10,774 nucleotides of DNA, from positions 1 to 10,774 of the forward strand of contig DAOVWW010000018.1 of the NCBI GenBank assembly GCA_030636465.1, given 5' to 3'. Origin of the DNA: Gammaproteobacteria bacterium (GTDB taxonomy: Bacteria; Pseudomonadota; Gammaproteobacteria; BMS3Bbin11). Each line of letters starts with the position of its first letter. Position 1 is the first letter of the stretch. The translations under genes and the position numbers were made by a program. Under the pieces are notes generated by a model. The model worked only from the letters and a program-made list of their open reading frames with translations. It ran no database searches and was not told the origin of the DNA. Positions 1-10,774 of this stretch are shown in pieces.

Positions 1-106
1 CTGCGTTAAGAATCTTCGCAATAGCTAGCTATTACGTGCGATCCTTGCCTTGACATGAACAATTCTGAATGCAATCTGAAATAACCAGACTTAATAGAGG
101 TGCCCT
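1..106 (-). mobile_element. Palindromic MITE-like element, copy A (cut by window edge)
   Basis: Read on the minus strand, this matches the first part of copy C (10036-10195). By hand comparison of 1-108 with 10034-10141, flanking TA included, 104 of 108 positions are identical. The terminus AGGGCACCTCTATTAA (rc of 91-106) is followed outward by TA at 107-108. The central palindrome AATAGCTAGCTATT lies at 20-33, and the rest of the element is outside the window. No ORF is present. The element abuts dppF, whose TAA stop uses the flanking TA plus the first base of the element. A MITE-like identity is inferred from the inverted ends and TA flank; no transposase is visible. Confidence 0.85.
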
Positions 107-8163: not shown

Positions 8164-8326
8164 AGGGAACCTCTGATTAATTCTGAGCGAAGTAGATTGC
8201 GATATAAAATATACAGATTTGAGGCGGAAAGTACACGTAATAGCTAGCTATTGCGAAGATTTTCAACGAAAAAGCTGGATGTTTTAGGCGAAAGATACTA
8301 GTTCATGAATCGATCAGAGGTTCCCT
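8164..8326 (+). mobile_element. Palindromic MITE-like element, copy B (divergent subfamily)
   Basis: A 163-base element with perfect 14-base terminal inverted repeats, AGGGAACCTCTGAT at 8164-8177 and its complement at 8313-8326. The centre is the palindrome AATAGCTAGCTATT at 8239-8252, within a base of the midpoint. The 28 bases at 8234-8261 are identical to those at 10104-10131 (copy C) and, reversed, 11-38 (copy A). The arms and tips differ from A and C (AGGGAACC instead of AGGGCACC). No TA flanks are visible, so the insertion is older or its exact ends differ. It lies between convergent genes and forms the 3' end of the minus-strand CxxC gene. It has no ORF of its own and could act as a two-way hairpin terminator. 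Confidence 0.85.
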
Positions 8327-8733: not shown

Positions 8734-8809
8734 TGGTGCCGGAGAGTGGGATCGAACCACCGGCCTGCGCATTACGAATGCGCTGCTCTGCCAACTGAGC
8801 TACTCCGGC
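8734..8809 (-). tRNA. tRNA-Thr (anticodon CGT)
   Basis: A 76-base cloverleaf with encoded CCA. The acceptor stem pairs GCCGGAG with CTCCGGC, followed by discriminator A and CCA. The D-arm has GCTCAGTTGGCAGAGC. The anticodon stem GCGCA/TGCGC encloses the loop TTCGTAA, giving anticodon CGT, which reads ACG codons. The T-arm contains GGTTCGATCC. It closely resembles the E. coli tRNA-Thr(CGT) gene. The gene lies downstream of thiO on the same strand. Confidence 0.97.
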
Positions 8810-10031: not shown

Positions 10032-10035
10032 TTTA

Positions 10036-10195
10036 AGGGCACCTCTATTAAGTCTGGATATTTCAGATTGCATTCAGAATTGTTCATACCAAGGCAAGGG
10101 TCGCACGTAATAGCTAGCTATTGCGAAGATTCTTAACGCAGAGATGGACGATTTTGGATGCGAGATGAATGTTCATGATTTAATAGAGGTGCCCT
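10036..10195 (+). mobile_element. Palindromic MITE-like element, copy C (complete)
   Basis: A complete 160-base element. The terminal inverted repeats AGGGCACCTCTATTAA (10036-10051) and its complement (10180-10195) are perfect, and TA flanks both ends (10034-10035, 10196-10197), as expected for an IS630/Tc1-type TA target duplication. The midpoint, 10115.5, is exactly the centre of the palindrome AATAGCTAGCTATT (10109-10122). Comparing the arms by hand without gaps, about 52 of 80 positions are complementary, and more if G-U pairs are allowed, so the transcript could fold into one long hairpin. It has no transposase or credible ORF. It lies between ispH and thiO and carries the thiO ribosome-binding site. 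Confidence 0.92.
10040..10045 (-). promoter_or_regulatory. Shine-Dalgarno of thiO, carried by element copy C
   Basis: GAGGTG on the minus strand is a six-base match to the anti-Shine-Dalgarno and ends eight bases before the thiO ATG at 10031. It lies within the terminal inverted repeat of copy C, which ends at 10036, so the ribosome-binding site is contributed by the insertion. Confidence 0.65.
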
Positions 10196-10208
10196 TAGCA
10201 CTCGTTAA

Positions 10209-10774
10209 TTAACGCAATGCCTTTGGCAGTGCAAACGTAACATTTTCTTCAGGGCCGGTTAAATCACTGACCGTTGATTCCACCAGGCCTTTGCATCTTT
10301 CGATAACACCTTCTACCAGCACTTCGGGTGCCGATGCGCCTGCAGTTATACCCAAAGCTTTTACATTTTCTAGCCATTCAGGGTTTATTTCACTGGCATT
10401 ATCTATCAGGTAAGCCCGTACGCCTTTCTTCTCTGCCAGTTCTCTCAGGCGGTTGGAATTTGAACTATTAGTGGAACCCACGACGAAAACCATAGCACAG
10501 TGTTCTGCTAGCCTTTTAACTGCATCCTGGCGGTTCTGAGTGGCATAACAAATGTCATCTTTGCGTGGCCCCTGTATGTGTGGATAGCGCTGTTTCAGGG
10601 CCGCAATCACATTGGCAGTATCATCAATAGATAGAGTAGTTTGCGTAACATAGGCCAGCTTTTTCACATCACCCAGATCAAGTTTTCATAAATCTACAGG
10701 TGTTTAAACAAGATGAATGCCTGTAGATATCTGACCGATAGTACCCTCTACTTCAGGGTGGCCAGCATGACCAA
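10209..10774 (-). pseudogene. ispH: ispH (4-hydroxy-3-methylbut-2-enyl diphosphate reductase), interrupted, 5' end beyond window
   Basis: IspH is the iron-sulfur enzyme of the last step of the MEP isoprenoid pathway. The minus-strand frame reads GHAGHPEVEGTIGQ at the window edge and runs in one frame to PKALR at the end. It includes [24 protein letters not shown] (the third cluster cysteine), [11 protein letters not shown] and TAGASAPE. Two in-frame stops interrupt it: TAA at 10706-10704, where relatives have Glu (LVE), and TGA at 10688-10686, where E. coli has Trp (VWKL). Translation restarting at the GTG 10667 would give 152 residues lacking two of the three cluster cysteines. The rest looks unmutated, so inactivation is recent, or the stops are sequence errors. 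The gene is normally essential unless a second copy exists. Confidence 0.8.

Follow-up and report, generated by a model that had tools for sequence, protein, structure and literature searches.

A widespread gammaproteobacterial family of IS5-type MITEs with a strand-specific predicted fold

The window analysed here, a stretch of 10,774 nt from a draft gammaproteobacterial genome, carries three copies of a palindromic repeat, termed A, B and C. Copy C (10037..10194, 158 bp) lies in the gap between thiO and ispH, and its strand with the stronger predicted hairpin is the plus strand. It is preceded by TTAA (10033..10036) and followed by TTAG (10195..10198), a target repeat with one mismatch. Copy B (8166..8324, plus strand, 159 bp) is flanked by CCAG and CTGC and is without target repeat. 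Copy A (1..105, minus strand) is cut by the contig end, and its visible target copy at 106-109 reads ATAA on the minus strand. The ispH match (10209-10774) is confined to profile positions 145-266 of 267. Its ORF opens at 10667, with the contig extending further, which may reflect a contig-end error or a real break. A tRNA-Thr (CGT) gene is found on the minus strand at 8734-8809, ~400 bp from copy B.

The first-pass annotation of the window had placed all three copies correctly. It had also reported a 14-bp palindrome at the centre of each of the three copies and no internal ORF, and both observations are borne out. The palindrome, AATAGCTAGCTATT, is located at 20..33 in copy A, 8239..8252 in copy B and 10109..10122 in copy C, whose symmetry axis at 10115.5 was also placed correctly. 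No ORF of at least 80 aa was found inside any copy; ORFs do run into the copy edges. The same annotation had given the copies inverted ends; the leading A or AG of the ends it described is part of the duplicated target, and the elements measure 158 or 159 bp. According to the target analysis described below, the terminus of subfamily A, to which copies A and C belong, is GGGCACCTCT at copy C (10037-10194), and that of subfamily B is GGAACCTCTG at copy B (8166-8324). The likeness of the three copies is beyond chance. In BLAST searches of the own genome with copy C, copy A is 96% identical over 106 nt (E 1.3e-44), and copy B, representing the second subfamily, 77% identical over 93 nt (8234-8326; E 1.5e-10).

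Copy C returns 41 BLAST matches in its own draft genome (1.87 Mb, 342 contigs, 72% complete), counting split and reverse-strand matches, and a covariance model (E<=1e-10) detects 31 elements there. With the same model and threshold, we found 110 elements in G002, 40 in G004, 17 in G003, 51 in G006, 2 in G001, 3 in G005 and 2 in G007. G001-G006 belong to the same genus, G007 to the same family only. Going by loci with identical positions and scores, G003, G006 and G004 are probably the public MAGs CSMAG_729, CSMAG_2624 and M_MetaBat.99, respectively. Thus, the large genomic population suspected from the window alone exists, with 31 elements in the own draft and 2-110 in seven relatives. Subfamilies A (GGGCACCTCTATTAA ends) and B (GGAACCTCTGATTAA ends) can be aligned across their entire length and are of common ancestry. 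In a class-wide survey, model matches (E<=1e-5) occur in 100 of 369 genomes and 75 of 271 genera, with the best match below 1e-20 in 36 of these 100 genomes (counted from the table), bearing in mind that class-wide E-values are rough and weak matches may be generic hairpins. Exact B ends are present in 22/369 class genomes and 17/271 genera. Moreover, 97 stretches of named genomes match the core pattern, and all 80 titles listed for these are gammaproteobacterial or proteobacterial MAGs; core conservation among them is biased, since the loci were retrieved by the core itself. A search for end pairs in the genus recovered 28 elements in four of the seven genomes, all of which have a recognisable core, judged by eye in 80 letters of each.

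Searches gave no sign of spread on plasmids or phages: the plasmid collection contains nothing that matches copy C, copy B has no match in plasmids or phages, and the core pattern matches 0 viral contigs. No described Rfam RNA family is matched by the elements at gathering score; the best weak match is MIR2630 on the minus strand, whose 27.9 bits fall far below the gathering score of 144, and a tRNA is the sole match in the window. No description of the family was found in the literature searched. The elements share with MITEs that they are short, non-coding and multi-copy and have terminal inverted repeats.

We then analysed the insertion targets. From 320 matches, 244 are full length with flanks and 201 remain after duplicate removal (109 A, 92 B). 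Element starts were set at GGG (A) or GGA (B), this boundary being the best among several offsets. Identical 4-bp flanks are found in 49/109 A copies (2000 shuffles: mean 11.7, maximum 21) and 52/92 B copies (mean 11.2, maximum 22). Where the left flank is not a palindrome (57 A and 64 B copies), direct repeats are more frequent than inverted ones, 18:3 in A and 34:0 in B. A perfect repeat is absent in 60/109 A and 40/92 B copies, including window copies B and C. The A targets (TTAA 20, TTTA 9, TATA 7, others 13) are looser than the B targets (TTAG 17, TTAA 16, CTAA 9, CTAG 2, others 8), which are mostly YTAR; 44 of the 52 B duplications are TTAG, TTAA, CTAA or CTAG, as in MITEPsy1.

The initial description had instead proposed TA flanks and kinship with IS630/Tc1-type MITEs such as Correia elements, which are IS630-type with TA duplication. 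At copy C the flanks TTAA and TTAG form an imperfect 4-bp repeat, and the flanks of copy B, CCAG and CTGC, are not TA. At the boundaries first proposed, equal 2-bp flanks are seen in 63/109 A copies (24 expected), yet they are TA in only 33 of the 63, and 0/92 B copies have equal 2-bp flanks. A preferred 4-bp target of which only 2 bp are duplicated would give a similar picture, so the outer target bases were tested alone, using only copies whose middle two bases are equal (A 63, B 60) and 5000 shuffles within the same middle. In A, the two outer bases are equal 57 and 52 times of 63 (shuffle means 45.9 and 42.5; maxima 53 and 51), and in B 59 and 53 times of 60 (means 35.0 and 28.1; maxima 47 and 45). 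Thus, the next base out on each side agrees to a degree never equalled in 5000 shuffles of either subfamily, which argues against a TA duplication. The duplicated target is 4 bp.

Empty sites, by which the mobility of the family was to be checked, are found in relatives, two of them with a single 4-bp target copy. L007 in the own genome has TATA on both sides, and its empty counterpart L247 a single TATA; L017, also in the own genome, has CATG, and its empty counterpart L144 a single CATG. L253 versus L146 and L247 versus L007 are similar filled/empty pairs that are not letter-perfect. Among the matches listed, L002, L016, L226, L235 and L258 have element-free orthologues with diverged junctions, L016, L235 and L258 all aligning to the same region of L063. 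The thiO-ispH gap of the window is element-free in four of six congeners: the spacing of the thiO and ispH matches is ~30, 30, 57 and 31 nt in G001, G002, G005 and G006, compared with about 185-220 nt between the same points in the window, with junctions too diverged to reveal a single target copy. In G004 the ispH side alone was recognised, and G003 has no thiO-ispH match among the matches listed. Further copies genome-wide and empty sites in relatives both exist, the opposite of what had been named as evidence against a mobile family. Finally, at L216 in G002 a B element has inserted into the CTAG at the centre of an A element and has CTAG at either side, and L213 is a second such case, one base off; by comparison, the CTAG within the central palindrome of copy C may serve as a target for B. 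Duplicated targets and empty sites are features of MITEs, too.

In two congeners, the ends of the elements are shared with transposase-bearing elements, one A-type insertion sequence in G002 and one B-type in G005. The latter (L150:143-1313) is 1171 bp long, its first 19 nt are identical to the end of copy B, and its flanks, CTAA and TTAA, differ by one base. The former (L151:1320-2573; 1254 bp) has A-type ends, of which 16/17 and 16/18 nt are like those of copy C, and is flanked by ATAA at either end. The open frame of this insertion sequence (1465-2694, minus) overruns the element end, and the family match starts inside. Both transposase ORFs exceed the cut-off of 140 for NCBIfam NF033581 (IS5 family), with 354.8 bits for L150 and 242.2 bits for L151, both contain DDE_Tnp_1 and DUF772, and they are 30% identical over 297 aligned columns. 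Thus, the putative partner transposases are of the IS5 family, as in IS5-family MITEs. The two insertion sequences may already have names in ISfinder. Relatives of both, with similar ends, are present in other genera. Relatives of the L150 transposase (E<=1e-40) occur in 27/274 class genomes. We fetched 30 of these loci, the best per genome plus three more, and 19 have an end pair at insertion-sequence distance, allowing <=4 mismatches per 15-nt end and without shuffle control; 9 of the 19 have equal YTAR flanks (L286, L289, L291, L294, L298, L300, L301, L312, L313). Relatives of the L151 transposase are found in 5/274 genomes, including G002 itself, with A-like ends at L325, L326 and L327 and ATTA on both sides of L327.

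These results also bear on the proposed kinship with IS630/Tc1. TA is the commonest target middle (33/63 A and 52/60 B copies with equal middles), as MITEs of that type with a TA duplication would predict. However, the duplications are 4 bp, the same ends are carried by IS5 transposases, and the sole DDE_3 (IS630-type) gene in the seven genus genomes has no matching end pair. A Correia-like IS630/Tc1 MITE is therefore rejected as very improbable. The likeness to Correia elements is that of a short palindromic multi-copy MITE, whereas the 4-bp targets and IS5 ends set the present family apart. IS701 MITEs have the target YTAR; no PF13546 (DDE_5) match was found in the seven genus genomes, and an IS701 MITE was rejected on this ground. 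REP or REPIN elements with a RAYT transposase are considered unlikely because of the 4-bp duplications and IS5 ends.

What the window had suggested, a non-coding palindromic mobile family of many copies, thus holds, with insertion sequences of matching ends in relatives: the repeats belong to a genuine IS5-type MITE family with a wide distribution among Gammaproteobacteria. The own draft contains no transposase with matching ends, and its sole DDE_Tnp_1 gene is IS1182-type; for this reason we infer mobilisation by L150/L151-type transposases from the congeners. Most likely the elements are moved by IS5-type transposases, as demonstrated for the parallel case of MITEPsy1. Of the MITEPsy1/ISPsy2 pair of Pseudomonas syringae, MITEPsy1 is described as an IS5-family MITE of 100 nt with short terminal repeats and six copies in strain 1448A, which inserts after CTAG or YTAA, duplicating those 4 nt, and whose transposition was trapped (PMC3189936). 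By that description, the present family resembles it in its short terminal repeats, duplicated 4-nt target and IS5 affiliation; it differs in its length of 158-159 nt, its up to 110 copies per genome, its presence in many genera and its conserved interior fold. The elements would be non-autonomous MITEs moved in trans by IS5-family DDE transposases that recognise their ~15-20-bp ends; the 158/159-bp element would insert into a 4-bp AT-centred target, which would then be duplicated. Subfamily A corresponds to an insertion sequence whose ends are GGGCACCTCTATT and whose targets are mostly A/T, and subfamily B to one with GGAACCTCTGATTAA ends and YTAR targets. One transposase type may serve several MITE families, since exact B ends are also found on L281-L284, which have no recognisable core. 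G305, the genome of L281, also has covariance-model matches.

The predicted fold of the elements differs between strands. For copy C it is -84.6 kcal/mol (z -12.5) on the plus strand and -45.3 (z -4.8) on the complement, with 0/200 shuffles folding as well, and for copy B -64.6 kcal/mol (z -9.3) and -43.5 (z -5.1), respectively. The plus strand is more stable in 102/104 A and 87/87 B copies, which share ancestry, so that the fold tests on A and B are not independent. Its hairpin covaries and contains G.U pairs and purine mismatches at positions where C.A and pyrimidine mismatches are found in the other strand. In the alignment of this strand from 46 diverse sequences (44 of 45 representatives, L269 being left out, plus the two window copies), two-sided changes that preserve pairing are seen at least once for 46 of 53 predicted pairs. 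The consensus mismatches comprise 6 G.T and 3 C.A in A and 8 G.T and 2 C.A in B, and all others are purine-purine (7/7 and 10/10). This strand asymmetry has P 0.007 (A) and 0.0005 (B) in 2000 random strand-form flips of the mismatches. Of 22 elements fetched by B ends, 18 have a recognisable core, and their strand gap is 10-35 kcal/mol, compared with 1-10 in the four without (L281-L284). Judged by eye, the strong strand has the same homologous orientation across the 18 cored elements. Their summed G.T : C.A ratio is 105:41, with G.T in excess in 15/18, equal in L278 and fewer in L268 and L269.

Compared with their two nearest neighbours, the copies show 250 changes from Watson-Crick to G.T and 142 to C.A. 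This suggested RNA selection on resident copies, a reading weakened by the balance of rare changes (<=4 copies, strongly paired columns), which are 54:66 in A and 23:23 in B (G.T : C.A). It is replaced by a narrower claim on variants that spread. Alleles in 1-6 copies are 71 G.T and 76 C.A, those in >6 copies 28 and 4 (Fisher p=5.2e-5). The same asymmetry is seen in A (p 0.0099) and B (p 0.0024) separately and for interior pairs alone (25:3 spread, 43:47 rare; p 6.6e-5). Pooled, it is stable at all five thresholds from 3 to 10; A alone gives p 0.065 at 10. Moreover, tree parsimony assigns G.T and C.A gains of 81:29 to internal and 222:144 to terminal branches (p=0.013). That hosts weaken the hairpin in their own mRNA was rejected, since other mismatches should then spread like G.T, yet common alleles are 12/192 for other mismatches and 28/99 for G.T (4/80 for C.A). 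The data point to selection on the predicted fold of the plus strand in lineages that spread, probably as RNA.

An alternative to the fold part only, not to IS5 mobility, is that these are ordinary IS5-driven MITEs with a functionless asymmetry, in which a founder had a G.T excess by chance and template switching keeps the arms alike. Two-sided Watson-Crick changes exceed expectation even when rare (A singletons 7 versus 0.22 expected), as strand-symmetric arm copying would produce. Consistent with it are also the balanced rare one-sided changes (A 54:66, B 23:23) and the consensus counts, which are small when taken alone (A 6:3, B 8:2). Against it stand the 28:4 among spread variants, for which the rare 71:76 is the mutation-bias control, the 81:29 gains on internal branches and the purine-purine nature of all remaining consensus mismatches (7/7 and 10/10). 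We give this alternative a real but less than even chance. In the selective reading, one strand of the variants that spread has remained able to form a single long predicted hairpin, which contains G.U pairs and internal loops of the purine-purine type. That the fold works at the RNA level, for instance by providing a double-stranded segment that is processed, is less certain, though somewhat more likely than not. A stronger form, a mobile RNA hairpin that is moved by IS5, depends for its spread on the one-strand fold and is selected as DNA at its ends and as RNA in its interior, can be put forward only tentatively. The explanation as a whole, IS5-driven MITEs whose spread variants kept one strand's long predicted hairpin, is very probable; the strand-specific fold is its surprising and still uncertain part.

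The gene context was surveyed for 96 A and 81 B of the 201 copies by a rough longest-ORF method, leaving out 9 copies without an ORF on one side and 15 with short flanks. Relative to both flanking ORFs, the strong strand of A is antisense in 56 and sense in 16 cases (p=2.4e-6), a bias of the same direction in five genomes (antisense:sense 12:1 in G000, 18:5 in G002, 3:1 in G003, 8:3 in G004 and 9:4 in G006). Such a bias could be expected of host-serving regulatory hairpins, kept for tuning the expression of adjacent genes by terminating transcription, offering sites for RNA processing or stabilising mRNA. However, B shows no bias (25 antisense, 19 sense), relatives lack the element at orthologous sites, between 2 and 110 copies per genome are found across the family, and no terminator-like site was found at copy C, where one promoter-like match at the edge (minus strand) is near chance. 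The A bias is explained equally well by the loss of harmful insertions, those placing the strong hairpin in a message, which is its simplest reading. A host-serving role is thus improbable.

The interior of a MITE is generally regarded as filler that separates the ends to which the transposase binds. In the present family, the interior and its fold persist across genera, and a parasite of this kind would not usually be expected to keep an RNA-like one-strand fold as it spreads. Provided that the fold does play a part in spread, these elements offer a way to test for selection of bacterial MITEs at the RNA level. Transcripts of Correia elements (CREE) of Neisseria are reported to fold into hairpins, and RNase III to cut Correia-holding transcripts (PMC10969869). 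The pneumococcal BOX, RUP and SPRITE are small interspersed repeats, too; RNA structures are predicted for them, and resident insertion sequences probably move them. The ends of RUP, in distinction from the present family, are like those of IS630-Spn1, and flanking-gene orientation was examined (PMC3049150). In the sections of that study on these repeats we found no strand-specific fold test of the kind done here. TIMEs, like the present elements, are described as non-autonomous elements for which stable RNA hairpins are predicted and whose interior has conserved stretches; they differ in their Tn3-type ends, 5-6-bp duplications and usually single copy (PMC4133298).

The window contig starts inside copy A, and contigs of named MAGs start or end inside an element at L038, L052, L064, L068 and L091. 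Since these contigs terminate within elements, assemblies seem to break at the repeats, which would explain part of the contig breaks in genomes of uncultured Gammaproteobacteria. Subfamily A also has a long form with ~48 nt extra near its centre (L018:420-630, L019:415-627, L020:390-601, L025:1-186, L061:2095-2304), which adds small hairpins to the folds of L018, L019 and L061. Some B copies carry another short insert (L041:2668-2875, L048:7533-7716, L070:6176-6383), seemingly doubled in L041 and L070. Very short derivatives that kept both ends and lost the centre are found in L027 around 426-475 and at L106:7167-7235. Finally, L212:538-697 looks like a recombinant at the common core, its left half being of type B and its right half of type A.
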